Positions 2,094 to 19,576 of a stretch of DNA of 33,789 nt are shown here, in pieces. The notes under the pieces were generated by a model. It did no database searches and had not been told where the DNA came from. It was given only the letters and a program-made list of their open reading frames with translations. The number at the start of each line of letters is the position of its first letter. Within the stretch, counting starts at the first letter, position 1. Both the position numbers and the translations under genes were made by a program. Origin of the DNA: Geobacter sp. (GTDB lineage: Bacteria; Desulfobacterota; Desulfuromonadia; Geobacterales; DSM-12255); contig VFJK01000142.1 of the NCBI GenBank assembly GCA_009886125.1, positions 1-33,789 of the forward strand. The letters are read 5' to 3'.

Positions 2094-5000
2094 CTAATTC
2101 ATTATCTTTGGCGTTATGAAAATCAGCAGCTCGTTTTTGCTTTTGTTCTGCGAGTTGGATTTAAAAAGCCACCCCAGAAGCGGTATGGATGAGAGATAAG
2201 GAATCCCTGTCTCACCTTCTGTATCGGAATCGACATATATACCGCCGATGACAGTGGTCTCACCATTTTTCACCACGAGTTCGGTTGTCGCCTCTTTCTT
2301 GTTGATAGGGGGCGGAGATCCTATGCCCGCAGTATTGTTACTTGCCTTGATCTTCATATTGACACTGCCATCAGAAGTGATGTGAGGGGTCACCTCCAGA
2401 CTCAGGGCGGCCTCAATAAACTCGGTCTTTGCACCGTCAGTAGAGCTGGTATTTTGGTAGGGAATCATCTGCCCCTGTGAGATCTTGGCTGCTTTGTTGT
2501 TTACGGTAAGCACCCTGGGAGTTGATATTATTTTGAGCTGCCCGACTGTTGCCGCAGCAGAGAGACGCATATCCAACTGAATATTGCTCAACAATTTGCC
2601 GAATGACATCCCGGTTGCCAGACCACCTGTCGTACCAGTCGGGAGGATGTTTGTTACAACCCCACCCATTGAGCCGGTAAGGTTGTTGATGTTGCCGATC
2701 GAGGCGGTCCCGTCAGTATAACCAAAGTTCCACTTGACCCCGATATCCCTGGCAAAGTTGGAGGAGGCCTCAACTATTCTTGCCTCGATCATTACCTGTC
2801 TTTCAGGGATATCCAGCTGCTCCAGAAGCTTCCGCATCTTATTTATGTTCGGTTCAGTGTCGGTAACAATGACTTTATTAGTTCTTGCATCTGATGATAC
2901 CGACCAGTCGCTTCTTGATCTTTTAAATGACTTGAATTGAGTTTCAATGTCACCCAGCCCAGCAAAGTTGACATCAAAAATCACTGACGAAAGCGGCAGC
3001 TTTTTCTCTTCTACTACCCGCATTTCAATTGCTTCATCATCCAGGGACTTCATCTTTGTTTTTGGACGGATCTGCACGATATTACCCGTCTTCTGCATTC
3101 CGAGTCCCTTGTTCTCCAGGATGACATCAAGAGCCTGGTCCCAGGGTACATTTACGAGTTTAAGACTGATAGTTCCGGTTACATCATCCGAAACAAGGAA
3201 GTTCTGATTACTGACCTCTGCGATCAGCTGGAATATTTTTCGTATGTCAGCATCTGAAAACTCAAGCGTAACCTTTCGGCCTGAATACACCTTGCCCTGC
3301 TTGGTTGTGGGCTGTGACTCTTTCTCGAGGACAAACGCCTCATCCATTGCCTTATCAGCAACGCTTTTTGCAGCCGGCTGCCTGGCTTCACCCATCTCGC
3401 CTTCAACACCAGTCGGCCTGACAAATGCAGCTTTCGCCGCTTTAGCCATTTTCAACGGTTTGACTTTTTTCAATGGTTCCTTGAAATCCCACTGCAGCAC
3501 ATCTTTGTCACGCTTGACACTGTTCGACACGGCCATTTTAAGCGAAACCAGGATTTTAGCTTCAGGTGGTGCCCCTTTTTTCTGCACAGAAGGGGTAATG
3601 CCTTTGATGACGCTATCGAACCCATGTGTATCAAGCTTCCGTTGAAGGTTTGCCGGCATACGGCAGGACTTTACTGTCAACAGCAGACCTTTTGATGTTT
3701 TAACCGGATCACCGGCGCGGCAGTCACCTGATGTACGTACTGTTACGCGTGATATACCTTCTGCCTGAGTAAACTCTATTGCCTCTACAACCCCGGCAAA
3801 ACTCTTTTTTGATACGGGCGGTGCAGGCAGAGGAACCGGTACTGCTGCGACTACCGGTGCTGCAGGCGGTGCAGCTGGGACCGGAAGAGCTACTGGCGCA
3901 GCAGGGGCCGGAACTGCAGCTTCAACAGGCTTTACAGTATCTGATCCTGACTTATCTTCTGCCACAGGAGGTTCAACCTTTACAGATTCGGCCTTCGCAG
4001 CTTCTGCTTTAATCAGCTCTTCTTTGACCGTTTCGGTTTTTACAGCCTCTTCCTTTGCTGCTTCGGCTTTTGCAGTGCCCTCCTGGGCAGGTTCCGCTTT
4101 AACTGGTTCCGCAATTTTCAGTTCTGTACTTACCGGATCTATTTTTCCAGGTTCTGGCAGTATAGTCTCAGATTTAACCGCTTCAGCCTTTTGGCTTTGA
4201 GTCTTTATCGCCGCTCCCCCAAAAACAAGAGCGAGGACTGACCCACTCTTTGTCAAAGTGTGAGCCGGAATTGATCCGCCTTGAGCATCAAAAACTATCC
4301 TGAGCCTTTCCGGTGACACCCCGATTCTTCCCTTGCCCAAATTAAATGCATTAATATCTATCGGTTTTGAATCCACTGCACTGGTGGTTTTCGGGACGTC
4401 AATTACAAAACGCTCAGGTGATCCGAGCTTGAATGCCTTGAAAGATTCCGGTTCAGCCGAGAACTCAAGCATGAGACCGTCATCACTCTTCTTTATGGCA
4501 GTCAGTGCCCGCTCTCCGGCTTTCAGAACAGTTTTCGATCCAGTTGTCAGTGCGACAGAAGCGGCAGGAGCTGCCGACACAGTCTCAATCCTGGGGGCTT
4601 CTGATTTAGCTGGTTCCTGGGCAGCCCCCTCATTCTCGATAACTGCAGGCTTAGGCTCAACGTCCTTTACCTGCACCACTGGCTGAGTATCAGCAGCAGG
4701 TGCAGACTGCTTTGCAGCAGACTCCTGCTGCTGAAGGGGCGCTGGAATCGGCAGATTAATGACGAGTCTTCCTTTATTTTGCTGGTCTAACTGAGCGGTC
4801 ACATCCAGTTTAGTTGTCAGGGAGATCTCCACTCTACTGAGAACGCCGCTTCCGAATTCATGTTTTGTGACATCAATTTTTGTCAGGCTGCCTTTATTAA
4901 CACTGATTGGATAAGATATTCTAGCAGGGGATGTGTTGGCTAGATCGACAATCAGCCTGTTCGGGGATTCCAGCGTGTAATATGTGTAGACAATCGGCTT

Positions 5001-5186
5001 ATTTGAAAGGATCTCAACTTTTGCCCCATCGTCTGAAACGTTTATCCCCAGTATCTCTGCACTCACAGCAGAAACGGCTACCGTATCAGGCTGAACCGTT
5101 TTCATCTGCTGAGCACACCCTGAGGATATCAATAGAATCAGGAGAAATAGAGCCCGCTGTATTGTTCCGATCTGGCTAATTTTCAT
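2094..5186 (-). CDS. pilQ: Type IV pilus secretin PilQ
   Basis: PilQ forms the outer-membrane ring through which the pilus exits. The 1,030-aa protein begins with a lipoprotein signal (LLISSGC, Cys24). It then has AMIN-type peptidoglycan-binding modules at about 42-147 and 225-325, and a low-complexity Lys/Glu/Ala then Pro/Ala linker at about 330-458. A further beta module lies at about 460-570, secretin N0 (EFSDADIRKIFQLIAE) at about 637-712, N1 at about 730-800 and the secretin barrel to the end (ELLIFITPK). At 1,030 aa it is clearly longer than the roughly 700-aa Pseudomonas protein, mostly because of the linker and extra module. The ATG at 5186 has a GGAG site 7 bases upstream. The gene starts 9 bases after pilP and ends the pilMNOPQ series. 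Confidence 0.96.
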   Translation of the reverse strand: MKISQIGTIQRALFLLILLISSGCAQQMKTVQPDTVAVSAVSAEILGINVSDDGAKVEILSNKPIVYTYYTLESPNRLIVDLANTSPARISYPISVNKGSLTKIDVTKHEFGSGVLSRVEISLTTKLDVTAQLDQQNKGRLVINLPIPAPLQQQESAAKQSAPAADTQPVVQVKDVEPKPAVIENEGAAQEPAKSEAPRIETVSAAPAASVALTTGSKTVLKAGERALTAIKKSDDGLMLEFSAEPESFKAFKLGSPERFVIDVPKTTSAVDSKPIDINAFNLGKGRIGVSPERLRIVFDAQGGSIPAHTLTKSGSVLALVFGGAAIKTQSQKAEAVKSETILPEPGKIDPVSTELKIAEPVKAEPAQEGTAKAEAAKEEAVKTETVKEELIKAEAAKAESVKVEPPVAEDKSGSDTVKPVEAAVPAPAAPVALPVPAAPPAAPVVAAVPVPLPAPPVSKKSFAGVVEAIEFTQAEGISRVTVRTSGDCRAGDPVKTSKGLLLTVKSCRMPANLQRKLDTHGFDSVIKGITPSVQKKGAPPEAKILVSLKMAVSNSVKRDKDVLQWDFKEPLKKVKPLKMAKAAKAAFVRPTGVEGEMGEARQPAAKSVADKAMDEAFVLEKESQPTTKQGKVYSGRKVTLEFSDADIRKIFQLIAEVSNQNFLVSDDVTGTISLKLVNVPWDQALDVILENKGLGMQKTGNIVQIRPKTKMKSLDDEAIEMRVVEEKKLPLSSVIFDVNFAGLGDIETQFKSFKRSRSDWSVSSDARTNKVIVTDTEPNINKMRKLLEQLDIPERQVMIEARIVEASSNFARDIGVKWNFGYTDGTASIGNINNLTGSMGGVVTNILPTGTTGGLATGMSFGKLLSNIQLDMRLSAAATVGQLKIISTPRVLTVNNKAAKISQGQMIPYQNTSSTDGAKTEFIEAALSLEVTPHITSDGSVNMKIKASNNTAGIGSPPPINKKEATTELVVKNGETTVIGGIYVDSDTEGETGIPYLSSIPLLGWLFKSNSQNKSKNELLIFITPKIMN

Positions 5187-5195
5187 CGATAACTC

Positions 5196-5813
5196 CTACT
5201 TTTTCCTTAATAACGTAAGCTTTACAATCCGTTTTCTGGCTTTTCCGTTGTCATCCTTGAAACTCTCCTCAACTTCGATAGAGTTAGGAGTCACTTTTTT
5301 TACGCGCCCGTCGTTATTTCCAATCTGCATTCCTTCCTTGATCACATATCCCTTGCCAGTAGGATCCATGACAAGAGCACTGTTTTCCTTTACGCCTGTT
5401 ATAATCCCGGTAATCCGGAATTTTTCAGTATCAAAGCTCTGAATCGGCAGAGCATCACGAAGCCTCCCCTTGGAAGGTTTTCCGCTTGCATCCTGCTTGC
5501 TTGAAGGGACCTGAATAAATGGCCTGAACGGGTCCCTTCTGTTGGTAAAGTCAAGGCTGACTGCGCCCGGAGGAAGAAGTCGCTTTGACGATGATATCTG
5601 CTTCTGGAGCGCAGGCTTCCCTGCAGTATTGTTAGCCATGACCGGCTTTACCGGCACAGACGGTGCTGCCGTAGTTTTCTTGGGAAGAGGAGTAGCCTGT
5701 GGCGGAGGCAGTGGAGCCTTCTTTTTGCAGCCAGGCATAGCAATAGCCATGATTGCAAATAATATCAGCCAGCCTCTTGAGATCAGGCGTATGCTATTTC
5801 TTCTTTTTATCAT
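5196..5813 (-). CDS. pilP: Type IV pilus inner-membrane lipoprotein PilP
   Basis: A 205-aa lipoprotein with a signal peptide ending AMPGC (Cys29), then a Pro-rich, disordered segment and a C-terminal beta domain. That domain includes the family-typical NRRDPFRPF stretch (about 91-99) and the small beta sandwich that binds the PilQ N0 domain. PilP joins the PilN-PilO dimer to the secretin across the periplasm. Its start overlaps the end of pilO by 20 bases, indicating translational coupling. An AAGGA lies 8 bases before the ATG. Confidence 0.92.
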   Translation of the reverse strand: MIKRRNSIRLISRGWLILFAIMAIAMPGCKKKAPLPPPQATPLPKKTTAAPSVPVKPVMANNTAGKPALQKQISSSKRLLPPGAVSLDFTNRRDPFRPFIQVPSSKQDASGKPSKGRLRDALPIQSFDTEKFRITGIITGVKENSALVMDPTGKGYVIKEGMQIGNNDGRVKKVTPNSIEVEESFKDDNGKARKRIVKLTLLRKK

Positions 5814-6402
5814 CCTTGGGATCCTTGACTTCGGTCTTATCCAGGAATCGGAACGTTGTAGCCTGACAGTTTACCCTGACAATATTACGCCCTCTGTCGT
5901 TTCGGATATCACTGAAGGAGACATTGCTTATATTAACTATCCTCGGGAGATTGCCGACAGCAACAAAGAAATTGGCAATGCCAAAGAATGGTCCTGACAC
6001 AGAAATATCCACCGGCACTTCGGCATAAAACTCTTTCGGGGTCTCCCCTTTAGGCCGGAAGATCAGAAAATCAAGTCCTGCGCCCTTGCCGGCACTGGTG
6101 ATACTGGTAAGAAGCGTCGGGATCTCCTTGGAATTCGGCAGTTCGGTCAGAGCACTGTCGAGATCTTTTTTAAGACCTTCGTACTCTGACTTGAATTTCG
6201 GAAGATTGTTGGCAAATTTTCTTGTCTCATTGATTTCAGCTTTTACCTTGTCGAGTTTACCCTGAAGAGCCTTCAACTCGTTGAGTTTCGGTTTCTCAAG
6301 CCCGAAGAAGAACCCAGCGCCTAAAGCGATCAGGATCACCGCTACAATGGCAATCTTCTTGGGTAACGGGAGATGCATTATTTTTTCTAGTTGCGGATGC
6401 AT
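5794..6402 (-). CDS. pilO: Type IV pilus alignment protein PilO
   Basis: A 202-aa bitopic inner-membrane protein with a short cytoplasmic N-terminus, one membrane helix (about 18-34), a coiled coil (about 36-90) and a ferredoxin-like periplasmic domain with the FYAEVPVDISVSGPF stretch. PilO dimerises with PilN and connects the cytoplasmic PilM ring to PilP and PilQ. The C-terminal tail is Lys/Asp-rich. The ATG at 6402 has AAGGA about 7 bases upstream and follows pilN by 29 bases. Confidence 0.93.
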   Translation of the reverse strand: MHPQLEKIMHLPLPKKIAIVAVILIALGAGFFFGLEKPKLNELKALQGKLDKVKAEINETRKFANNLPKFKSEYEGLKKDLDSALTELPNSKEIPTLLTSITSAGKGAGLDFLIFRPKGETPKEFYAEVPVDISVSGPFFGIANFFVAVGNLPRIVNISNVSFSDIRNDRGRNIVRVNCQATTFRFLDKTEVKDPKDDKKKK

Positions 6403-6431
6403 AATAAATCCTTGTCTATGGCTTCGCGCAT

Positions 6432-7028
6432 CTACTTCTTTTTCGGCAGCTCTTTAGCAGGCTGTTCTTTGGCAGATTCCTCTTTTTTCGCTACCTTCAA
6501 GGCACAGGAAATATCGAATTTCTTCAACTTTATCCCGTTAACCTCCTGTTGCTCTGATATCTGGAGATCGACATTCGTAAACTCATTTGAAGACTGAATG
6601 CTTCTCATGAACTCGGCGATATAATCCTCACTGTAGGACAACCCGGATATTGAAACTATAGCCCCGTTCTCTGAATATTTAGTAAGCCACATCTTCTCCG
6701 GGACTATATCACTCATCCGTGCCAGCCTGATAGCAGGGCCGGACTTCTCTTTTCTGAGCTGATTGAGGATATCCAGTTTTTTCTGTACCTCAGCCTGAAG
6801 TTTTTTAAGATTGTCTATCTCGCCGATCTTCTTCTTCAAATCAGCAAGTTCATTCTCAGCCCTTGTTATTTCGGTTTTTGTAGTCTTTATCTTCCCGATC
6901 GTGATTGTGTATACCGCGCCCAAAGCAATCAACGCTCCGACTATCACGACTGCGATAATGATCAACTGTTGCTGAGCAGTCTCCTTCTTCTTGGAGACCC
7001 TGTATGGTAGAAGGTTAATTTTGATCAT
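6432..7028 (-). CDS. pilN: Type IV pilus assembly protein PilN
   Basis: A 198-aa bitopic membrane protein. The N-terminal INLLPYR motif (residues 4-10) is the known docking peptide for PilM. It is followed by a membrane helix (about 21-44), a long coiled coil (about 48-95) and a periplasmic alpha/beta domain. The C-terminus is an unusually Lys/Glu/Pro-rich tail. The start overlaps the pilM stop by four bases (ATGA), so the two are translationally coupled. Confidence 0.95.
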   Translation of the reverse strand: MIKINLLPYRVSKKKETAQQQLIIIAVVIVGALIALGAVYTITIGKIKTTKTEITRAENELADLKKKIGEIDNLKKLQAEVQKKLDILNQLRKEKSGPAIRLARMSDIVPEKMWLTKYSENGAIVSISGLSYSEDYIAEFMRSIQSSNEFTNVDLQISEQQEVNGIKLKKFDISCALKVAKKEESAKEQPAKELPKKK

Positions 7029-8080
7029 TTATCGCCGAGCCTCCTTGAAGCAAGCCCGACAGCAATAGCCATGATCGGGGCGATTTCATCAAGAAACGCT
7101 TTTTCGAACTTTTTTTCATCGAACTTGATGCGACTGAACGGATTGAGGATTTCAACAGGGGAACTCAGCCTTGCACCAACAGCTTCTACAAGGTTAAACG
7201 TTTTACAGCCACCCCCCGAAAGGAATACTTTCGTTATCTTCCCACCGGTTGCGTTAGAGTTATAAAAGTCAAGTGAGCGTCTGATTTCAAGTGAGATGGT
7301 ATCATTGATTCTTGCTATAGATTCCAGAAGATCGGAAGGTGACGCCTTCGTTGCAGACAACTTCGTTCTTTCAGCATCCTCACCGCTCATTGCCAGTTTT
7401 TTCTGAATCTCTTCCGTGTAGAGTCCGCCCCCCATCTGCACGTCACGGGTAAAGAGCGACACTCCATTTTTCACTACGTTGATATTCATTGTATTTGCGC
7501 CGATGTTTACAAGGGCGCAGACCTCTTCAGGATCAAAATCATAATTCATCTCAAAAGCATTCTGCACTGCAAAGACATCCACATCCACCAGGACGAGTTT
7601 CAGTCCTGCTTCAGCAAATACCGACTGATAATCATTTACAATATCTTTTTTGCTTGCGACCAGGAGGACATACATCTTTGCCGGGTCGTTCTCATCAGGT
7701 TCAAGCATCTGGAAATCGATATTAACGTCGTTAATGTCAAACGGTATGTACTGTTCAGCCTCCCACTGTATCTCCTCTTCAAGCTCTTCAGTGGTGGATG
7801 TCGGTAGGGATATTTTTCTAATGATGACGGAATTCCCGGAAACGGAACTGGCAGCTTCTCTGGTATCTGCTATCCCCAAGCCTTCGAACAGAGACTTCAG
7901 TGCATCTACGACCGCAGAACTGTCCATCAGAGTGTTATCTACTATCGCCTCTAATGGAAGAGAGGCGATCCCGACACTATCGATTTCGTAGCGCCCACTA
8001 ACCCCTTTAAGCTTGACAAGCTTTACGGAGGTTGAACCTATATCTATCCCGATCAAATCCTTTTTCTTGGCAAAAAACAT
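7025..8080 (-). CDS. pilM: Actin-like type IV pilus assembly ATPase PilM
   Basis: A 351-aa cytoplasmic protein of the FtsA/actin-like fold. The phosphate-1 motif IGIDIGSTSVKLVKL is at residues 10-24. The phosphate-2 region ALVNIGANTMNINVV is near 189-203, and the adenosine motif VFLSGGG is near 290. PilM forms a ring that binds the PilN N-terminal peptide and links the periplasmic alignment complex to the motor ATPases. It starts 20 bases after the small HTH gene, with AGGA 7 bases before the ATG. Length and motifs are typical. Confidence 0.95.
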   Translation of the reverse strand: MFFAKKKDLIGIDIGSTSVKLVKLKGVSGRYEIDSVGIASLPLEAIVDNTLMDSSAVVDALKSLFEGLGIADTREAASSVSGNSVIIRKISLPTSTTEELEEEIQWEAEQYIPFDINDVNIDFQMLEPDENDPAKMYVLLVASKKDIVNDYQSVFAEAGLKLVLVDVDVFAVQNAFEMNYDFDPEEVCALVNIGANTMNINVVKNGVSLFTRDVQMGGGLYTEEIQKKLAMSGEDAERTKLSATKASPSDLLESIARINDTISLEIRRSLDFYNSNATGGKITKVFLSGGGCKTFNLVEAVGARLSSPVEILNPFSRIKFDEKKFEKAFLDEIAPIMAIAVGLASRRLGDK

Positions 8081-8100
8081 GGTCTGTTCCTGTCCGCGTA

Positions 8101-8301
8101 TTAGTCCTGAAAGACCTTTTCCCTGTCAGCAAGCGATAATCCGAGTGCCAGAATAATCTTTCGCTTCGTTTCGACCCTGCACTGCTCCCCACGCTCAATA
8201 CGGTCAATGGTAATTGCCGAGACACCTGCGAGGCGAGCTAATTCGGCCTTGCTCATCAGCTTTGCTGCCCTTAAGCTCTTGAGATTATTTTTCTCTTTCA
8301 T
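8101..8301 (-). CDS. Small XRE/Cro-type helix-turn-helix protein preceding pilM
   Basis: A 66-aa protein that is almost only a helix-turn-helix domain. The segment MSKAELARLAGVSAITIDRIE is a typical XRE recognition unit (helix 2, turn, helix 3), followed by one more helix pair. I place the start at the ATG at 8301, which has AGGT about 9 bases upstream. An in-frame ATG at 8322 has no ribosome binding site. The gene lies between the riboswitch terminator and pilM, 20 bases before pilM, so it is almost certainly co-transcribed with pilMNOPQ. It could autoregulate the operon, but no operator was identified. Confidence 0.8.
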   Translation of the reverse strand: MKEKNNLKSLRAAKLMSKAELARLAGVSAITIDRIERGEQCRVETKRKIILALGLSLADREKVFQD

Positions 8302-8347
8302 ATCAACACGACCTGAATTCATTTAGAATTTTCACATCATGTTGGGG

Positions 8348-8375
8348 AATGTACACCTATTAAAGGCAATGTCAA
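8348..8375 (-). promoter_or_regulatory. Candidate sigma-70 promoter just upstream of the HTH-pilMNOPQ operon
   Basis: On the minus strand there is a perfect TTGACA (8370-8375), a 16-base spacer and TACATT (8348-8353, 4 of 6 to consensus). Transcription would begin near 8341, downstream of the riboswitch terminator and 40 bases before the preferred HTH start. If active, it would give riboswitch-independent expression of the operon. Confidence 0.5.
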
Positions 8376-8436
8376 GTAATTAAATACAATTATATGCCAA
8401 TGATGCAACAAGTCATGAAATTAATCGCTTCCCTTT

Positions 8437-8490
8437 AAAAACAAAAAAGCCGGGTGCCTGATATCTTGATAGATATTTCGGCAACCCGGC
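8437..8490 (-). terminator. Rho-independent terminator forming the riboswitch expression platform
   Basis: On the minus strand GCCGGGTTGCC (from 8490) pairs with GGCACCCGGC (ending at 8449), with a single bulged T. The inner arms ATATCT and AGATAT extend the hairpin around an ATCA loop. It is followed by a run of six T, a G and five T (8448-8437). The 5' strand of this stem is also the 3' part of the GEMM aptamer, so the two folds exclude each other. Ligand binding should therefore prevent termination, making this an ON switch. Confidence 0.88.
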
Positions 8491-8550
8491 TGTCTGCTTG
8501 AGACCCTGTAGGCTTTCCGCCCCACCCTCGCAGATGGTTGAGTATTATCG
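8472..8550 (-). promoter_or_regulatory. GEMM-I cyclic dinucleotide riboswitch, probably the cyclic AMP-GMP (cAG) type
   Basis: The minus-strand RNA has the GEMM-I signature: a short P1 (GAUA with UAUC), AACC leading into a small P2 hairpin closed by GGGUGG, and the conserved GGCGGAAAGCC. These are followed by a P3 hairpin (GGGUCU with AGACAG) and CCGGGUUGCCGAA at the 3' side. Geobacter GEMM-I RNAs of this form are known to bind cyclic AMP-GMP (class Ib). In my hand alignment to the Vibrio Vc2 RNA, the position of the ligand-contacting G20 is an A here, the change associated with cAG preference. It lies directly upstream of the HTH-pilMNOPQ genes and reads into a terminator that uses its 3' strand. 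Confidence 0.85.
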
Positions 8551-8574
8551 GTTATCGGTATGTATGTGAATTCA

Positions 8575-8603
8575 CTTTAATTCAAATCCGGGTTAAAAGT
8601 CAA
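8575..8603 (-). promoter_or_regulatory. Possible promoter of the riboswitch leader
   Basis: On the minus strand TTGACT (8598-8603), a 17-base spacer and TTAAAG (8575-8580, weak) could start a transcript near 8568, about 18 bases before the aptamer. Read-through from the upstream minor-pilin genes is an alternative source of the leader RNA. Confidence 0.35.
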
Positions 8604-8681
8604 AGCCTTTCAAAGAATCTTACCCAGGAAACGGTACCTTTTACCTCACTTAAGTCATTCAGAACAGGCGCTCAATTCAGG

Positions 8682-9305
8682 TCAATATGCGTAAAGAACT
8701 GACAATTTCGCCTTTTCCTTCGGATTCACTAAAGCTTCGCCTTGCACTTCAACAGTGTAGATAGTCGGGGTACGCGGCGTTTGGGTACTTGTACTTGTCC
8801 CTGACACTCCTATCCCGGCATCAAGAAAATCAACACCGCTGGCATCTATAAGACCTACCCCTGCAATAGTATCGATAATCTTGGTGTAAACCTTAAAATC
8901 ATTGCCCGCAGTCTGCCCCTTGAGAACAAATGTCACATCCGGCGTATCCTTAGGGTCAACTGTCCTGCTGAGTCCGCCCCAACTCGCGGTGGACAGGCTT
9001 AGTTTTGTTCCTAATCCGGCTGTGGTGAACGTAAGCCCAAGCTTGTCGGCCGCACCGAAATCCGTAACAAGGGACTCCTTCCCTCCCGAATAGTTATTGA
9101 AAAGACGAGGGATAATGGTCTTGGTAACAAACTCGGTACCACCGTATGATGCTTCCATGGAGTTTCTGTAACGCTTCTGGGCTGCCGACATCCTGGTCCC
9201 GGCAAGCACATAATAAAGGAGCGTCATAATCATGCCTAGGCAGAGCAGGGTAAACATTAGCGCCGTGATCAGAGCTATGCCGTCTTCATTTCGCAGATAT
9301 CTCAT
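8682..9305 (-). CDS. pilX: Minor pilin assembly protein PilX
   Basis: A 207-aa protein with a short N-terminus followed by DGIALITALMFTLLC, the hydrophobic N-terminal helix of PilX-family minor pilins. It lacks the usual Glu at position +5 of the mature protein (Thr here), as is common in PilX. PilX belongs to the priming complex with PilV, PilW, PilY1 and a FimU/FimT-like pilin. I chose the ATG at 9305, which has GGTGA 5 bases upstream and lies 16 bases after pilW. The longer reading from a TTG at 9353 would overlap pilW and add a tail before the signal. The remainder is a Thr/Gly-rich beta domain. Confidence 0.85.
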   Translation of the reverse strand: MRYLRNEDGIALITALMFTLLCLGMIMTLLYYVLAGTRMSAAQKRYRNSMEASYGGTEFVTKTIIPRLFNNYSGGKESLVTDFGAADKLGLTFTTAGLGTKLSLSTASWGGLSRTVDPKDTPDVTFVLKGQTAGNDFKVYTKIIDTIAGVGLIDASGVDFLDAGIGVSGTSTSTQTPRTPTIYTVEVQGEALVNPKEKAKLSVLYAY

Positions 9306-9321
9306 AAAATCACCGCCAGCA

Positions 9322-10500
9322 TTATTGGACCAGATTTTTCGGTCGAACGACAATTGTGTAAACCTTCCATCGATAATACTTGTAGTCAGGGCCGATCAGG
9401 GACGGAAGGTGGAAATTCCGGCCCCTGTCAATACCGTTAATTTTCTCACCAACCCTTACTGTTGCTGATGAAGACACAGAGGAGTAGTTGTATAAAGTAT
9501 CCCTTTTCCCTTCCTGGGCAAGAATATACACCCTGATCTCTTTCAGCCTGCTCCTGATTTCAGAGGCTGATAATAATAAGATATCATCCGTGTGATCATT
9601 GACTGTGCTTGTATCCGGAGCAGCAAGGCCGTACACCACCTGCATATCCGCTACGCAGTCCAGAAGGGGTGTCCCTGCAGTAGGGCTTCCGCTTACATGA
9701 CTGATTGTTGATTTGTAGAGTATGCCGGTCTTGGTGGCGCAACTGGCCGGTATGCTTGCAGGGCGGCTCACATAGTAATCCGCACGATTGAACGGCATCC
9801 GAAGATCATTGGTCGGGTTGATACCGTAAACCTCGAAGGTATCTCCATTCTGATGGGTGTTGATCAGGGTCATATAGGTGCCATTTGAGGCTGAGCTGTA
9901 TCTGGAGAAAAACACCCCGCTAGCAGGAACCATCAACTTGCGGCCGACTGGAGTGGACATCAACGAGTTCTTCACAACTATTATCCGTTCATTAACGGTA
10001 AAATCCCGATCAGCAGCGCCCCATTTGCTGATACTTCTTATTCCATCCTTGTCAAAGGCCACGGTCGCCCACTTTTTCGAGGTGTCATTGGCAGCAGCCA
10101 TGGTTGACTTGATAACCAGATACTTGGAACCGACGTTTCCTACCTTGTTGAAGCTTGAATTGCCACTCAGTACTGGGCGCGGAGCATTGCCGGTCGAATC
10201 ATTGAACAGCAACCCTGTAGAGGCGTTAGTGAAGACCGCCTCAGCGTAAGTGCAACCAACCGACGCTGAACCGCTGGCAGCCTCCCATGGAAGTCCGAAT
10301 CCGGCACTCTCCAGATCTGCCCGCAGCATTTCTAGCCCGACGATCCCCTCTATCTGGGTTTCAGCTGATTTTGACAGCTGGGAAGAGCTGTTCACAATTG
10401 TTTTGAAGGCAGTTGCCGTAATCATGATAATTGTCAGGAAAATCCCCATGACAACAATCAATTCTGTAAGAGTAAAGCCCCGTCTGTTTTGAAAAAGCAT
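9322..10500 (-). CDS. pilW: Minor pilin PilW
   Basis: A 392-aa minor pilin with a class III signal: MLFQNRRG before the PilD cleavage point, then FTLTELIVVMGIF with Glu at +5. The large C-terminal domain is typical in size for PilW proteins. With PilV, PilX and PilY1 it is thought to initiate pilus assembly and sit at the tip. AGGA lies 8 bases before the ATG, and the gene follows pilV by 34 bases. Family and context agree. Confidence 0.88.
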   Translation of the reverse strand: MLFQNRRGFTLTELIVVMGIFLTIIMITATAFKTIVNSSSQLSKSAETQIEGIVGLEMLRADLESAGFGLPWEAASGSASVGCTYAEAVFTNASTGLLFNDSTGNAPRPVLSGNSSFNKVGNVGSKYLVIKSTMAAANDTSKKWATVAFDKDGIRSISKWGAADRDFTVNERIIVVKNSLMSTPVGRKLMVPASGVFFSRYSSASNGTYMTLINTHQNGDTFEVYGINPTNDLRMPFNRADYYVSRPASIPASCATKTGILYKSTISHVSGSPTAGTPLLDCVADMQVVYGLAAPDTSTVNDHTDDILLLSASEIRSRLKEIRVYILAQEGKRDTLYNYSSVSSSATVRVGEKINGIDRGRNFHLPSLIGPDYKYYRWKVYTIVVRPKNLVQ

Positions 10501-10534
10501 AAATCAGTCCTTTTGCCCGGTTACCAGGTATATC

Positions 10535-10942
10535 TCAGTCGTTGGTTACAGAGATGGGAGCTGTTACCTCATTCTCGAAATCAACCCCTTTATAACTCCA
10601 TCTGACTATGATCCGCATCCGTTTCGAGGGAGTTATTGTGTTCGTCGACAAATCAGTTGTTGTCATGAGTACCGTGTATGACTTGTTTGCCCCTCTGATC
10701 CTGCTGGGTTCGGAGCGTGGGGCATAACTGGTCGACAGCAGGCTGAACTGCTTTCCTCTCTGGATATTCATATATTTTTCGCCAACATAGACTGCCTCAT
10801 CACGCAGATGGTTTTTCAAATTGACCTCAGTAGCAATATTAATCGACGTAAGCAGCCCCAGCATCCCCACCATCATGATAATAATGGCTACCATCACCTC
10901 GACAAGAGTAAACCCGGCATTATTTCTGATCAATGTTGGCAC
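10535..10942 (-). CDS. pilV: Minor pilin PilV
   Basis: A minor pilin of 135 residues with a class III signal: a short leader ending NNAG, then FTLVEVMVAIIIMMVGMLG with Glu at +5, as in PilV/PulI-type proteins. I favour a GTG start at 10942 (first residues MPTLIRNNAG) because a GGAGGGG ribosome binding site lies 9 bases upstream. A GTG at 10948 is too close to that site. Longer in-frame readings would give an implausible leader. The start lies inside the end of the preceding fimT-like gene (23-base overlap), suggesting coupling. Confidence 0.82.
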   Translation of the reverse strand: MPTLIRNNAGFTLVEVMVAIIIMMVGMLGLLTSINIATEVNLKNHLRDEAVYVGEKYMNIQRGKQFSLLSTSYAPRSEPSRIRGANKSYTVLMTTTDLSTNTITPSKRMRIIVRWSYKGVDFENEVTAPISVTND

Positions 10943-11405
10943 TTTCACAATCCCCTCCGTTTCGCCAGCCGAGATTAATACGGGCAGGTGAAACAACGAT
11001 ACTGTCTACCGCTGCCGAGTTTACAACCGTAGTATCATTTGTCGGCAATATGCACATTGATCTCTCGTTACTGGTCAACCCCTGCGCGTCAAAGGTCAAC
11101 TTCGTACCTGCACCGTTCCATACTATCGGGTACCTGAGCTTCCTGGTCGCTACCGGCGTAGCAGAGGTATCAGTCGATGCATACGCCTTGTACTCCTGGC
11201 TACTGATGGTCACGCAGCGGGCTGTTTTGCTGTAGAGCGCCTGAAGACGTACTTCCATAAGATCAGCATGCAGCGTCTTGATCTGGCTTTCGATAGCTGC
11301 CTTGGTCTGCATTTCGTTCCAGTTGAGAGTAGCAATTGCCAGCAGAGTACCCATGATCGCTATCACTATCATCAATTCGACAAGAGTAAAACCACGTCGG
11401 CCCAT
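10920..11405 (-). CDS. FimT/GspH-type pseudopilin (FimU/FimT-like minor pilin)
   Basis: A 161-aa pseudopilin with leader MGRRG followed by FTLVELMIVIAIMGTLLAIA, the classic class III signal and Glu at +5. The rest resembles GspH/FimT proteins, which take part in pilus priming or DNA binding. The ATG at 11405 is one base after the pilY1 stop (TGA-A-ATG arrangement), with AGGAA 8 bases upstream. The longer reading from 11477 would lie inside pilY1 and misplace the signal. Whether it should be called fimU or fimT cannot be decided here. Confidence 0.82.
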   Translation of the reverse strand: MGRRGFTLVELMIVIAIMGTLLAIATLNWNEMQTKAAIESQIKTLHADLMEVRLQALYSKTARCVTISSQEYKAYASTDTSATPVATRKLRYPIVWNGAGTKLTFDAQGLTSNERSMCILPTNDTTVVNSAAVDSIVVSPARINLGWRNGGDCESANIDQK

Positions 11406-11406
11406 A

Positions 11407-14400
11407 TCAGTGTTCCTGTATATGAAGAATCTTCTTGAGCGGTTTGTTCTGGCTGCTGCTGACAATTGGTGGTGCATCTGAAGGCGGCTTGCCCGTCATC
11501 GGCGTAGCCATCCGACGGCCACCCATGGCAGTAAAGGAAGTGGAGAGGTCGACCTCCCTGAACTCTCCGGTTGAGAGCTGAATCAGGGCCTTCCCCGTAA
11601 GTGCACTTGCAGCAGCCGTTCCACCGGTATCAAAGCTAACCCCCCAGAGGAAGGAGTTACCTCCATAACCGCAAAGATCCATCGTCGGCTTGAAAGAGGT
11701 AAAAAATACCGTTCCGTTGGTCAGGGCAACCGTATCAGTTACGACCCGTTCTGCAGCCTGGGCAGGTGTAACCCCTGATGCTGTTGCCGCTTCAAGAGTG
11801 ATCTTCCAGCCCCCGGCATCAGGATCGATTGTCAACGCAGGAGGGATCCCCGTCTGATCCGCTAAAGTCTTTGAGACAGGGGCAACGCAGTTTTTATCAA
11901 CGGTATTCCCCGGCGCGCCGGCCTGAACTCCGTAGCAGGGCTCCTTAATACCGTAGAGCGCCCTTATGCCGTTATTGTCGTCCAGTTCGGCACTGTCCCT
12001 GAAAAAGTAGCGCCCGGTCCCGAAAAACAGCCAGAGATTCCTGCTGATCGTTCTTTTATCCACCAGCCGTGAAATTGCCGTAGTCACCGGGCCTATATCA
12101 TCTATAACCTTGCTCCAGACCCAATCAGAAACAGTCGTGCTCTCCTTGGTAAAAATTCTCCCTACCCCCCCCTTTGTCCAGGTATTGGGGGTGACGGACG
12201 TATCTGCTTTTGTATACCCGACGTAAAGGGCATCGTCCTGATAATTTCCGGCTGCTGTAGATTCAGACCTGTGGACGTCAATTGAAGCGCCTATCATTGA
12301 TCCGGCAAAAGCCATAGGTATCCCGGTTGAAATAACTCTCTCCTCATATCCGGTCTGCAGATCGACTACGAAGAACTTGAGCTCCTGGTCCGAGCGCGCC
12401 AGAAACTGATGCGTGCTTGTATTGATCGGGCCGGTAGGGCCTGAACCGAACACCGCATACCACTTGCCGTTTTTTTCCTTGTCGCCGATCCTTATGATTG
12501 CCGGTCCGGTCGTTGAGTATCCAAGCGCAGGATTGTTATACTCCCAAAGCAGTACAGGAGCTGCAGGATCGGTCACGTCCAGCGCGAAGTAGGAGGAGTA
12601 GCCAAGCCCGGGGTTCGTCAGGATGTCAGAAGGATCGGTAATCGGTGTCGCTACACAGTTTGCGCCTGCGGCACAAGTTGCAGCTGGTGCAGATGCACCG
12701 CCAACCCCCATCCCGCCGATGACAACTGTCCGCCAGGTGTTCTTCGTCGGATCCAGGAAGTTGCTGGCGTCAACAACCGAAAAGTTTTGTCTCGGCTTGT
12801 CGCACAATTCGTAGGTAGATCTGATACAAGGCCCAGTCAGAGCCGTATATCCAATACTGGCATCAAAAATTATAGTGCGCCCGTCGATGGAGTAAATATG
12901 GCTGTAATTGGGATCAGCCAGATATTTCAGATACGGGAGGGTGTTTTTAGGAATATACGCCCACTCTTCATTGCCAAGATTGCTTCCGGTAAGTTCCGCC
13001 TTCTGGAAGCCGATGGATTCAACTGAAAGAAGACCGAGCTTGAACGCATGAAGCATACCGTCATTTCCGCCGACATAGACCATTCCGCGGCTCTTGTAGT
13101 CTTTTGAACTGATGTAGGATTCATAGGACTTATCGGAATAACCGCCGGGGGAGGACAGATTGTAGGTACTCAGCCTGACTGTCGACTGAATTCGCGGGGT
13201 CGATGATATGATATCACCGAGTCTCCATGTCCCGCTCACAAGTGTCCCGAGCGAGTTTCTTATCTGCACTGTCCTTGATCGATATGTTGAGGAGTCCAGC
13301 CCGTGAACCCAGTCGATCAGGTTCGGGGCCTCTGCTGTAGAGACATCCAGGAAAGGAGCGAGTGTATCTGAATTACTTGCAATAGCGGTCCCGCCAATAG
13401 TCCCGGGATAGGTCGCCGATGAAAAGTAGATCAAGGAAGGTTTAAAAAGTGCAGACGCCTTGTTCGCATTGGTACTCGTATAGAGTTTTCTTGGATTGTC
13501 GACAAGATCCCTTGCCCAGAGAAGCTTCCCTGCCCTCCAGAGGCTCTTGACGTTGTCAGGATCGATAAGTCCCCCTTGAAGAGTATCACCGGTGCCATTG
13601 CCATCATCATCGCTCAGCAGCTGCACCATCGTCTTGTCGGCCGTAGCGTCGAATGCAAACCGTGCAACATAATCGTTCCTGATATTAAGCTTGAAATCGA
13701 GGTTTGTATCCTCACGGATAGTGCTGTTATTGATGTACGGATCAACGAAATACCAGAGATTCTGCATCTCGCCAACCCAGCTCGCTTCGGTAGCGTTGTC
13801 GAAAATTTTCTTCGGATAGAAGACCGCCTGGAGGATGTTGGCGCCGCTCCCCTCACTGTTGGAGAGAATCGAAGCGGCCGTACCGGATGCCGCCTTGGCA
13901 GCTATCTCTTCAAAGGTGGTACGCAATCCATCTTCAAGCTGTTTCGGGTTTTCCGCCTGATAGAAACGCCCGCCACCCTTAGTTGCTGTGTTGCTCATCA
14001 TGGTAACAGAGTTGCACTCGCCTGCCGCAGTGTTATTCTGACCGTTGAAAACCACATAGGTCGATATCTTGTCGCGCATGGTGACCGCATCTGGTGATGT
14101 CCCCGGTGTCCCGGTGAAGCTGCTGATTTTCTTGTTGCGCGCCAGCCAGGAGAGAATCGGCAGGTTGCTGCTCCCCTTGTAGTCGGGACAGGTGCCGCCG
14201 GTGAGGCCTGCAGAAGTTTTATATGCGTTAGAAACCGCCATGACTGTGGACTCTTGATCGGCAGTCGGATTGCCGTCACTGATCAAAAGGACGTAGTTCT
14301 GCTGGCAGGCATACTGGGAAGGGTTCAGGTCGCCGGGAAAATCGGCAGAATTAATACGAATGCCCGTCCTGCTGGTAGTGGGCGACATATAGGCGAAATA

Positions 14401-17091
14401 GCCTATGGCGCTGAAGAAAGCCTCTGAAAAAGGGGTCCAGCTGGCAGCCTTGAGCTCATCGATCTCTCTGACCAGACCGCTGCTGTGCGTTCCGGCACCG
14501 GTCATGGTGCAACTGCTCGTCGGATGAAGCAGAGAGATGCAGTTTTCGTTGGTCGTACACGCTGTGGTGCCGTCATGGATGCAGGTCCCCTTGCCGACCG
14601 GATACAGCAGTCTGCCGCCGTCAATATTGGTTGCTGCCGTGGTATCGTCACAGGTGCAGCCATTGCCGCCGACACAGCAGTCAACCGCCGTCGTACAGGT
14701 GTTGCCGGCATTGGCGCCGCTGGAACTGCTGCATATTTTCGGGCAGGGGATGCTGGTGTTGGCGGCACATTCGGTTTTGGAGCCGTTGTAGTTGAAGCTC
14801 AGCACCCCGACACGGATCTTGCTGGCAAAAGTCTGCATAAGCCCCGACGGGACCGTAACCGTGCCGTCAGGGTTCGTAGATGACACCTTGACCGTCGCAG
14901 CAGGATACTCCACCCCTCCGCTAACAAGTTTGAGAGGTGCACCCAGCTGGCCGGCAATCGCAACATCGGCGATAACTGCCGGGAGATTGGCATAGCTGTT
15001 GGTCTGGTCGAGCACCACGTTGGTCGGGTCGGTGACCGGCGGGAGACTCATGCCGCCGCAGTATTTCTCATGCTGCGACTTGACGCAGGCATCGGAGGTC
15101 CAGGTGCTGGGCCAGGTGCCAGCAGCCGGAACGGTCTCTGTTATGGTCACTGTTGACACGCTGGGCGTGCCGAGCGTGGCGCCGGTTACTGCAGAGAGGG
15201 TGACAGTAAAGGTTTCGTTCGGCTCGGCAGTCCCATCGCTGAGAATCGGGATCGGAATGGATTTCACGTCAGAATTACCGGCATCCCAGCTCAAATCGCC
15301 GAAGGTATTCTCATAGTCGCTGCCGGACAGTGCCGTGCCGTTACTGGTTGCATAGTGCACCGTGACCGGACCGTTATTACCGTCGATGCGCAGCACCCTC
15401 AGAGTAATCGACCCTACCGTTTCATTGACTGCAGAGGGTGCAGCCGACTCGAACTTGATGGTCCCCTGGCTGGAAGCATCGTCATTATCCGTGATCGTAA
15501 CTGTAGTCGTAGTGGTGGTACCAAGTAGCGCCGGCGTTGCAGCGTTGACGACCTTCGGGTTGGAGAGTTCCACGGTAAAGTCCCTGCTGCCATCGACAAT
15601 AGCATTGTCGTTGAGCGTGATGACAATCGATTTGTCATCGCTATTGTTGTTGGCCCATGAAAGCGTGCCATTGCTCTTGACATAGTGTTTAGTAAGATCA
15701 CCGGCCAGACCTCCGGCGGCCGTGCCGTCTACCGTGGCAAAGGCAACGCTGACCGCCTGATCGCTCCCTCCGGTCCGTGACACGAGCAGCGTGATGGTGC
15801 CTCCGTTTTCAGTCACAGTGTAGGTGGCTGACTTGAACTGCAGCGTGCCGTTGGAGCCGGCGTTAGCAGCATTGGGGGTCAGCAGGGCGAGCAGGCTGGG
15901 GAAAGGGGTCGACAGCGACGCAATATAACCGGCATAACAGGCACCGACATAGTTGTCACTGCAGAGCAGGGAAGCATCGCCGACCACGATGTCAGCGGCA
16001 GGATTGGCCGAAACCCTGGACGGGTCGCGCAGGTTGTAGACATCGGTGCAGAAGTTTTTCACGGTCAGATAATCGTTCCCCTGCATGACCTTAGGAGTGC
16101 TGGTGCTGCGGTTATACTGCCAGCACTCCTGAAGGCTCTGCTGGAAAATCTGCTTCCCCTTACCTGCCAGATCGGTGGTGCCAGATGCACCAATACAGTC
16201 GGCAACCGCTGTTTTCACCGCATTGGAGATGGAGTTGGTGGTCTCCAGCAGGTTGATGGCTTCATTGCATTTTTCATAATTCAGCGGGGCAGAACCCTTG
16301 TAGAAATATACCGACGTCTGCCCGCCGTTCGAAGGTGCCGTCGCATCAAACGAAGTGCTCGCCCCCTTGATCTGGAGAGATATGGGAAACGGTGTATTGG
16401 TCCCCCCCTCTACATAATTGCCGTTGTTGCTGCTCAGCGGCTGCTTGACAAAACCCTGGCCGACACAGCCGCGGGATTCACCGACCAGATCTGCACCGTC
16501 ATACTTGCCGCCGGTGAGTATTTTCTTCTGAACGTCGAACTTGGAGGCAGACAGCCAGTTCAGGTAATTTCCGTTTGCGCTGAATTTGGTTACTTTTGGA
16601 GGAGTGGATGCATCGACGGCCACGCAGAACTTGTTGGCATGATAGTAGGTGCAGTCACCTGAAGCTGGAAATGACGAGATCTTGGTGAATCTGCCGTTCG
16701 GGATATCATAATTATAATACGATGCCGTATCAAAATAACCGGCATAGGTATTGTTGCATGTGTTCCCGGTACCGCAGACTGCTTCAGCATTGGCGGTCGT
16801 ACAGCTTAGTGATGCGTTATTCGAGCAGGACTGAGACTTGTAGGTGTTGTCAAAACAGTAATTCGGCTTGCGGACCGGCGAACAACTGCTGCACCCCTTG
16901 TCGACATAGGTCAGATCGAACATACTTGAGGAGTTATCGATCATCAGGAGCAGGTTCGGCTGGATACCGGCGGTAATGAACGGAGGGGTTACGCAGTACT
17001 GGTTCCCCGGATCGGCCTGTACCTGTGCTGGAACAGCTTGAAACGCTATGAGTAGAGTCAGCAGCAGCGAAATCCTGATCACTGTTTTCAT
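11407..17091 (-). CDS. pilY1: Giant PilY1-type pilus tip adhesin with two Calx-beta domains
   Basis: A 1,894-aa secreted protein with a Sec signal peptide (about 1-25, ending VQA). A von Willebrand A-like domain appears split: MIDNSSSM (MIDAS-like DxSxS) at about 49-56 and YVLLISDGNPT at about 932-942. Two Calx-beta domains lie between them (about 413-538 and 541-652), followed by a Cys-rich patch (about 774-862). The C-terminal half is the PilY1 beta-propeller (GMVYVGGNDGMLHAF at about 1335). An EF-hand-like DDDGNGTGD loop lies at about 1160-1168. PilY1 caps the pilus, aids priming and mediates Ca-dependent adhesion. I place the start at the ATG at 17091: it has AAGGGG 7 bases upstream, begins the signal peptide and lies downstream of the sigma-54 promoter. 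A start at 17148 would lie within that promoter. Confidence 0.9.
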   Translation of the reverse strand: MKTVIRISLLLTLLIAFQAVPAQVQADPGNQYCVTPPFITAGIQPNLLLMIDNSSSMFDLTYVDKGCSSCSPVRKPNYCFDNTYKSQSCSNNASLSCTTANAEAVCGTGNTCNNTYAGYFDTASYYNYDIPNGRFTKISSFPASGDCTYYHANKFCVAVDASTPPKVTKFSANGNYLNWLSASKFDVQKKILTGGKYDGADLVGESRGCVGQGFVKQPLSSNNGNYVEGGTNTPFPISLQIKGASTSFDATAPSNGGQTSVYFYKGSAPLNYEKCNEAINLLETTNSISNAVKTAVADCIGASGTTDLAGKGKQIFQQSLQECWQYNRSTSTPKVMQGNDYLTVKNFCTDVYNLRDPSRVSANPAADIVVGDASLLCSDNYVGACYAGYIASLSTPFPSLLALLTPNAANAGSNGTLQFKSATYTVTENGGTITLLVSRTGGSDQAVSVAFATVDGTAAGGLAGDLTKHYVKSNGTLSWANNNSDDKSIVITLNDNAIVDGSRDFTVELSNPKVVNAATPALLGTTTTTTVTITDNDDASSQGTIKFESAAPSAVNETVGSITLRVLRIDGNNGPVTVHYATSNGTALSGSDYENTFGDLSWDAGNSDVKSIPIPILSDGTAEPNETFTVTLSAVTGATLGTPSVSTVTITETVPAAGTWPSTWTSDACVKSQHEKYCGGMSLPPVTDPTNVVLDQTNSYANLPAVIADVAIAGQLGAPLKLVSGGVEYPAATVKVSSTNPDGTVTVPSGLMQTFASKIRVGVLSFNYNGSKTECAANTSIPCPKICSSSSGANAGNTCTTAVDCCVGGNGCTCDDTTAATNIDGGRLLYPVGKGTCIHDGTTACTTNENCISLLHPTSSCTMTGAGTHSSGLVREIDELKAASWTPFSEAFFSAIGYFAYMSPTTSRTGIRINSADFPGDLNPSQYACQQNYVLLISDGNPTADQESTVMAVSNAYKTSAGLTGGTCPDYKGSSNLPILSWLARNKKISSFTGTPGTSPDAVTMRDKISTYVVFNGQNNTAAGECNSVTMMSNTATKGGGRFYQAENPKQLEDGLRTTFEEIAAKAASGTAASILSNSEGSGANILQAVFYPKKIFDNATEASWVGEMQNLWYFVDPYINNSTIREDTNLDFKLNIRNDYVARFAFDATADKTMVQLLSDDDGNGTGDTLQGGLIDPDNVKSLWRAGKLLWARDLVDNPRKLYTSTNANKASALFKPSLIYFSSATYPGTIGGTAIASNSDTLAPFLDVSTAEAPNLIDWVHGLDSSTYRSRTVQIRNSLGTLVSGTWRLGDIISSTPRIQSTVRLSTYNLSSPGGYSDKSYESYISSKDYKSRGMVYVGGNDGMLHAFKLGLLSVESIGFQKAELTGSNLGNEEWAYIPKNTLPYLKYLADPNYSHIYSIDGRTIIFDASIGYTALTGPCIRSTYELCDKPRQNFSVVDASNFLDPTKNTWRTVVIGGMGVGGASAPAATCAAGANCVATPITDPSDILTNPGLGYSSYFALDVTDPAAPVLLWEYNNPALGYSTTGPAIIRIGDKEKNGKWYAVFGSGPTGPINTSTHQFLARSDQELKFFVVDLQTGYEERVISTGIPMAFAGSMIGASIDVHRSESTAAGNYQDDALYVGYTKADTSVTPNTWTKGGVGRIFTKESTTVSDWVWSKVIDDIGPVTTAISRLVDKRTISRNLWLFFGTGRYFFRDSAELDDNNGIRALYGIKEPCYGVQAGAPGNTVDKNCVAPVSKTLADQTGIPPALTIDPDAGGWKITLEAATASGVTPAQAAERVVTDTVALTNGTVFFTSFKPTMDLCGYGGNSFLWGVSFDTGGTAAASALTGKALIQLSTGEFREVDLSTSFTAMGGRRMATPMTGKPPSDAPPIVSSSQNKPLKKILHIQEH

Positions 17092-17144
17092 ATTGGTACC
17101 CCTTAAATAAGCTTGGTTGATCCAATTCGAACAGACTATACAGA

Positions 17145-17160
17145 GCAACTATAGTGCCAA
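17145..17160 (-). promoter_or_regulatory. Sigma-54 (-24/-12) promoter of the pilY1-minor pilin operon
   Basis: On the minus strand TTGGCAC-TATAG-TTGC has GG and GC separated by exactly 10 bases, matching the sigma-54 consensus at nearly every key position. The start of transcription would be near 17133, about 40 bases before the pilY1 ATG. The locus also encodes a sigma-54 activator (18126-19508), the obvious candidate partner. Confidence 0.85.
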
Positions 17161-18125: not shown

Positions 18126-19508
<1,383 letters not shown>

Positions 19509-19520
19509 AACTGCTCCCGA

Positions 19521-19576
19521 TCAACAAACTTACCACTCAACAAACTTACCACTCAACAACTCAACAACTCAACTAA
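19521..19576. repeat. Short tandem repeats between kinase and regulator genes
   Basis: A 16-base unit (TCAACAAACTTACCAC) occurs twice in a row and is followed by about three copies of an 8-base unit (TCAACAAC). The tract fills the gap between the regulator start and the kinase stop and slightly overlaps the kinase 3' end. It looks like slippage-prone simple sequence. Confidence 0.8.

Follow-up and report, generated by a model that had tools for sequence, protein, structure and literature searches.

A predicted cyclic AMP-GMP riboswitch at the junction of two pilus operons in Geobacter, and a conserved promoter-like site behind its terminator

Introduction

Riboswitch control of pilus-assembly genes has precedents in Geobacter. 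For Geobacter metallireducens, the accessible portions of one report describe the pilM riboswitch as an ON switch for cyclic AMP-GMP (cGAMP), in which aptamer and terminator are mutually exclusive (PMC9262584). For Geobacter sulfurreducens and its GEMM-Ib RNAs, the accessible text of a second report counts a transcriptional regulator and pilMNOP among the genes that are both riboswitch-linked and GacA-dependent (PMC6456294). According to the same text, deletion of gacA lowers the regulator and pilMNOP 2-3 fold, pgcA 10 fold and omcAHG 16 fold, while omcST also falls only 2-3 fold.

In this report, we analyze a stretch of DNA of 33,789 nt from Geobacter sp. (assembly GCA_009886125.1, contig VFJK01000142.1, positions 1-33,789), which we refer to in its entirety as the window. 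A preliminary description of its sequence had placed a GEMM-I riboswitch at 8437-8550 on the minus strand, with a terminator sharing one of its strands, and had taken it to gate the output of the pilus machinery. Set against the G. metallireducens pilM riboswitch, as far as the available parts of PMC9262584 describe it, the element in the window has the same GEMM-I fold, the same cGAMP type, the same predicted ON-switch behavior and the same position before pilM, and its terminator likewise takes up the aptamer 3' strand together with the ligand-pairing C. The two, whose likeness is one of description, differ in species and in a promoter-like site that we name P2, which is absent from that description. 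Since a cGAMP ON switch at pilM has already been described in G. metallireducens, the window element belongs to a known kind, and the arrangement is not new, having been described for both G. metallireducens and G. sulfurreducens. The premise of the preliminary description that Geobacter GEMM-I RNAs can be cGAMP ON switches thus has published precedent, in the portions of PMC9262584 and PMC6456294 that are accessible.

Results and discussion

The first finding in this study is that the window contains a complete GEMM-I aptamer. When the entire window was compared by cmscan with all 4227 Rfam families, the sole match above threshold was RF01051 (GEMM-I, c-di-GMP-I) at 8477-8553 on the minus strand, with 39.8 bits (gathering threshold 35, E 1.4e-4) and spanning model positions 1-87 of 87, which upholds the riboswitch assignment made earlier. 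A chance match as the source of this score is ruled out by the E value and by the presence of the same element in 21 other pilM leaders. These come from a set of 73 distinct leaders, namely the window and 72 loci that are a subset of the pilM loci listed in 141 genomes of the order (L003 was left out because it has the same sequence as L039), and 22 of the 73 have GEMM-I above threshold. The bearers belong to genera g1, g2, g9, g11, g13, g14, g16, g22, g23 and g25, and no GEMM was found in the examined leaders of g3, g4 and g12, among others. Helices P1b, P2 and P3 of the aptamer are conserved: all 19 named pairs are standard in the window (one further Rfam pair, non-standard in the window, lies outside the 19), and 99.0% of 398 cells are paired over these 19 pairs in 21 distinct rows. 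Two pairs of helix P2 change on both sides, in 10 cells, a number of cells reached by none of 500 shuffles. The count of such pairs (two) and that of further pair types (four) are not above shuffles, which reach them in 403 and 495 of 500 cases, respectively, and 14 pairs never vary and are therefore uninformative on covariation. Among the 22 GEMM-bearing leaders the window has the lowest RF01051 score, and it differs from the majority at two of eight nearly invariant aptamer columns.

The aptamer shares its 3' strand with a predicted intrinsic terminator (8443-8490, minus strand), which consists of a 5' arm at 8480-8490 (GCCGGGTTGCC, read from 8490 to 8480), an inner AUAUC/GAUAU stem, a 3' arm at 8449-8458 (GGCACCCGGC, read from 8458 to 8449) and six T at 8443-8448. 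The hairpin has a predicted stability of -23.6 kcal/mol, which none of 500 mononucleotide shuffles equals. Because the 5' arm lies inside the aptamer at 8477-8553, the shared strand that the preliminary description had noticed is real, and the two folds should be mutually exclusive. A simple terminator scan of 8100-8800 reported none, and it presumably missed the hairpin at 8443-8490 because of its 8-base loop limit. Judged from the letters, this layout of aptamer and terminator is that of a transcriptional ON switch. A terminator formed with the aptamer 3' strand is predicted in all 22 GEMM leaders; a terminator-like hairpin at the same place is also found in 23 of the 48 leaders without GEMM and in 34 of 350 shuffled regions. 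Five leaders have an altered shared strand, and three of them (L085, L097 and L115) have a 3' arm that still complements the altered site; L060, whose duplex is weaker than any other, offers its changed base no partner outside the T-run, and in L089 the changed position of the terminator 5' arm stays unpaired. Shared-strand pairing in L066 and L085 was seen with a longer T-run setting. Ranking the terminator 5' arms against the 3' arms of their own and of other leaders gave no information overall, since most of the 5' arms have the same sequence.

The genes on either side are those of two pilus gene groups on the minus strand. The first gene behind the switch encodes a 66-aa HTH protein of the Cro/C1 type (8101-8301; PF01381, E 9.7e-8) and is followed by pilM (7025-8080; PF11104, E 2.3e-77), pilN (6432-7028; PF05137), pilO (5794-6402; PF04350), pilP (5196-5813; PF04351) and the secretin gene pilQ (2094-5186; PF00263, PF11741 and PF07660), so that Pfam confirms the proposed placement before HTH-pilMNOPQ, with pilM to pilQ covering 2094-8080. 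An HTH gene stands before pilM in 70 of the 73 leaders, and the PilM protein of the window is 77% identical to that of the closest named record found, a Geobacteraceae MAG. On the other side, the last gene of the upstream group (8682-9353, minus strand) is without a Pfam match and is one that we take, from its position and N terminus, to encode a PilX-like minor pilin. Of the 20 other GEMM leaders that could be tested, 17 have a homolog of it in the same orientation immediately upstream of the aptamer (L066, with too short an upstream sequence, is outside this count). The stretch at 9322-17091 (minus strand) holds, by Pfam, minor-pilin genes and a gene for a PilY1-like protein with Calx-beta domains whose ATG is at 17091; it includes a PilW-like gene at 9322-10500 and two genes for proteins with an N-methylation motif. 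Pfam further identifies, at 18126-21038 on the minus strand, an NtrC-type response regulator and a histidine kinase that are PilR/PilS-like by domain make-up.

The second finding, which the earlier reading missed and which is the only part of this work that may be new, is a promoter-like site between the terminator and HTH-pilM. This site, P2 (8348-8375, minus strand), reads TTGACA-16-TACATT and matches the consensus at 10 of 12 positions. Its TTGAC occurs 50-85 nt before the HTH start in all 70 HTH-bearing leaders (22 of 22 with GEMM and 48 of 48 without), as against 25 of 414 control windows of 40 nt further upstream in the same leaders, so that by sequence the interval between terminator and first gene is not free of promoter-like sites. 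In this count, which leaves L047, L112 and L120 outside since they have no HTH match, the HTH start of 21 of the 70 leaders was placed by alignment, at a position that is not an ATG, and the anchor in L080 and L087 is the first of two TTGAC. P2 agrees best with the consensus among the sites near the gene in 52 of the 70 leaders; in the other 18, chiefly from g12, P2 has a poor -10 box and is equaled or outscored by another site. Conservation extends beyond the TTGAC: the -10 region carries 0.90 bit of information per column, compared with 0.13 bit in the 30-60 nt before the -35 box, and an AT-rich element, a candidate UP element or operator, abuts the -35 box upstream (8377-8395, minus strand) with a mean of 0.69 bit versus the same 0.13. 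P2 has the look of the operon's basic promoter, with the riboswitch as a layer added in front of it in some lineages, and since its TTGAC box is found in 70 of 70 leaders, some of the transcription of pilMNOPQ should escape the switch. In the open literature searched, as far as its text was accessible, we found no mention of a promoter behind the pilM riboswitch or of pilM transcription start sites. A third promoter-like site, ATGACT-16-TATAAT (8389-8416; 10 of 12), is also located behind the terminator and overlaps the AT-rich element, which reads TATAATTA..TATAATTT in relatives. Between P2 and the HTH start, 8303-8343 (minus strand) forms an imperfect inverted repeat, AACATGA...TCGTGTT, with an inner GAATTC-like stem; its arms co-change in close relatives when compared by eye, and it is perhaps an operator for the HTH protein or an mRNA hairpin.

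Leaders without the riboswitch show several features of their own. The idea that they hold a decayed aptamer found no support, as cmscan at a permissive threshold gave no GEMM match in 17 loci, chiefly from g12. By eye, L102 keeps the GEMM 3' half and the terminator with a degenerate 5' half, and it has no Rfam GEMM match even at an E value of 5. The g12 leaders L064, L067, L070, L071 and L073-L078, all lacking GEMM, share a box, TTTTTATTGGTATSATCTCCC, upstream of P2; it follows a terminator-like hairpin in most of them, with variants in L063 and L065, and some g12 terminators contain GGGTTGC. In L044, L045, L046, L086 and L098, the riboswitch slot upstream of P2 is occupied by an inverted repeat, TTGAC or CTGAC...GTCAA, with a conserved center.

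Two sources could feed the switch with transcripts. One is a candidate promoter, P1 (8574-8603, minus strand), which reads TTGACT-18-TAAAGT and matches the consensus at 9 of 12 positions. Taken alone, P1 of the window is not above chance (47 of 200 shuffles are as good). Its TTGAC about 50 nt before the aptamer is kept in all five leaders of g1 and g2; in three of these the site agrees with the sigma-70 consensus at 10 or 11 of 12 positions, a score that no more than 2 of 200 shuffles equal. A P1 common to all GEMM leaders was not found; a good one is present only in g1, g2 and L113, and none was seen in most f3 and f4 leaders. The second likely source is read-through from the minor-pilin operon, which is suggested by the PilX-like neighbor and by the lack of any evident terminator from that gene to the aptamer (inspection of the window by eye, and the scan with its 8-base loop limit). 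That operon had been proposed to be under sigma-54, and there is indeed an exact match to the sigma-54 promoter consensus, TGGCACTATAGTTGCT, at 17144-17159 (minus strand), about 50 nt before the pilY1-like ATG. It is the one exact match in the window, compared with seven in 200 mononucleotide shuffles of the window; matches with up to two mismatches number 17, versus 16.7 by chance. In a relative, L144, the exact consensus precedes a long ORF in the corresponding place, which position and size suggest to be the counterpart; in another, L143, the contig ends before this place.

The explanation that we favor, and consider well supported as a whole, is anti-termination in response to cGAMP where two pilus operons meet, together with a base level from P2 that is independent of the switch; our confidence in the riboswitch itself is higher still. 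The GEMM-Ib riboswitch would be a transcriptional ON switch for cyclic AMP-GMP. In the absence of ligand, the aptamer 3' strand together with its ligand-pairing C92 would pair with 8449-8458 and polymerase would stop at 8443-8448, and with ligand the aptamer would retain this strand and polymerase would continue into HTH-pilMNOPQ. The switch would act on transcripts from P1 and also, because no other terminator is evident, on those from the sigma-54 minor-pilin operon. Transcription from P2 would start behind the terminator and provide a ligand-independent base level, in a transcript that would never carry the switch. In all this we infer ligand binding by the window RNA, the direction of switching, the use of P1 and P2, and read-through. 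Of the earlier reading, the GEMM-I identity, the shared-strand terminator with its ON architecture, the A at the specificity position and a sigma-54 site before the minor-pilin half are borne out; the proposal that the switch gates pilus-machinery output is not supported in that form, given the TTGAC of P2 in every one of the 70 leaders. The switch probably adds ligand-dependent transcripts to a base level and is not a gate for all pilus-assembly transcription.

The strict form of that proposal, in which all HTH-pilMNOPQ transcripts start upstream of the switch and need cGAMP, appears unlikely to us. It would account for the strong terminator that precedes the whole operon and for the description of the G. 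metallireducens pilM genes as under riboswitch control in the available text of PMC9262584, but 48 of the leaders with a P2 TTGAC have no riboswitch, in the window P2 lies behind the terminator, and the loss of expression in the gacA mutant is only 2-3 fold according to what is accessible of PMC6456294. A loss of this size for pilMNOP fits a switch that adds to a base level, and P2 could explain this modest effect of cGAMP loss in the published RNA-seq. Since omcST likewise falls only 2-3 fold, the small effect on pilMNOP need not mean that there is a second promoter, and it is no proof of one. With a conserved promoter-like site behind it, the well-studied pilM riboswitch may have less than full control of the operon. 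That such a switch exists here is no surprise, and this correction on operon control is the useful part of our analysis. We also suggest, as a tentative idea that we do not hold firmly, that the cGAMP switch is a ligand-controlled operon junction, at which a minor-pilin operon of the sigma-54/PilR type and a pilM operon with its own older promoter can be transcribed jointly or apart, and that the slot between them is a place where pilus control has been rewired repeatedly, as relatives without the riboswitch hold other conserved devices or plain terminators there.

The identity of the ligand can be predicted from the bases at three contact positions. We took Rfam position 11 to be Vc2 position 20, a mapping inferred from the alignments of RF03167 (GGC) and RF03168 (UAU), whose sub-family names we read as the bases at positions 20, 47 and 92. 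The aptamer at 8477-8553 has A20, A47 and C92, identical to the other 21 leaders, so that the A reported earlier at the specificity position (Vc2 G20) is indeed found at Rfam position 11, in the window as in all 22 GEMM pilM leaders. This combination is neither GGC nor UAU, and the window is below threshold for RF03167, with 40.8 of 59 bits. An A in place of G at Vc2 position 20, together with A47 and C92, is said to define cGAMP-selective GEMM-Ib RNAs (Kellenberger 2015), and the rule that A20 denotes cyclic AMP-GMP reportedly stems from the Geobacter work of Kellenberger 2015 and Nelson 2015. Statements on GEMM-Ib RNAs in Geobacter in the accessible parts of PMC6456294 and PMC8835794 agree with this rule. 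The window RNA is thus of the cGAMP (GEMM-Ib) type and, on the strength of these bases, most likely senses cyclic AMP-GMP.

The genome from which the window comes also encodes, by homology, a protein closely related to GacA, a cGAMP synthase. This REC-GGDEF protein (G000:C19:33119-34516), next to an ORF that we take to encode histidyl-tRNA synthetase, has GacA of G. metallireducens (6d9m) as its best PDB match, with 224 bits and the next match at 140. Its Ser and Tyr align at both of the GacA selectivity positions named in the accessible portion of PMC6456294. Relatives of this protein with E values of at most 1e-80 are present in 123 of the 141 genomes of the order. Selectivity motifs were read in all of 22 GGDEF matches but those of L133, L138, L139 and L141, and L130 contains another GGDEF protein that has Ser at the first selectivity position. 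We consider it highly unlikely that c-di-GMP is the main ligand of the RNA or that both dinucleotides act on it. The Rfam family takes its name from c-di-GMP, cGAMP riboswitches can bind it (PMC9262584, in its accessible part), and some predicted cGAMP-activated genes are raised in a strain with high c-di-GMP, for which such binding has been suggested (PMC12285248); against this stand the A at the specificity position throughout the 22 pilM leaders, the GacA-type synthase gene and the roughly 1600-fold selectivity of the Gm0970 aptamer for cGAMP that is given in the available text of PMC8835794.

The window element is one of two GEMM-I that we found in its genome, where 150 of 268 candidate places were scored, compared with 17 in G. 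sulfurreducens, as counted in the accessible text of PMC6456294, and with the eight other near-complete genomes of the family, which gave 8, 11, 14, 15, 16, 18, 20 and 20 matches. This scarcity, the lowest Rfam score among the 22 and the terminator-like hairpins in 23 of 48 GEMM-less leaders would suit a simple terminator at the end of an operon whose aptamer has decayed and become inactive, a reading that we find barely credible for an element in which all 19 counted pairs are standard and the ligand contacts are those of the other 21 leaders, in a genome that retains a GacA-like synthase. Under the cGAMP-switch explanation that we prefer, two GEMM-I with sequences of the cGAMP type, together with a GacA-like enzyme, would make this genome a possible natural minimal cGAMP regulon. 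The second element, L001 (G000:C92:23707-23781), is A-A-C by eye at the contact positions, and it precedes a gene whose product consists of repeats, each about 45 aa long, that have FKSxDxGxSW-like motifs.
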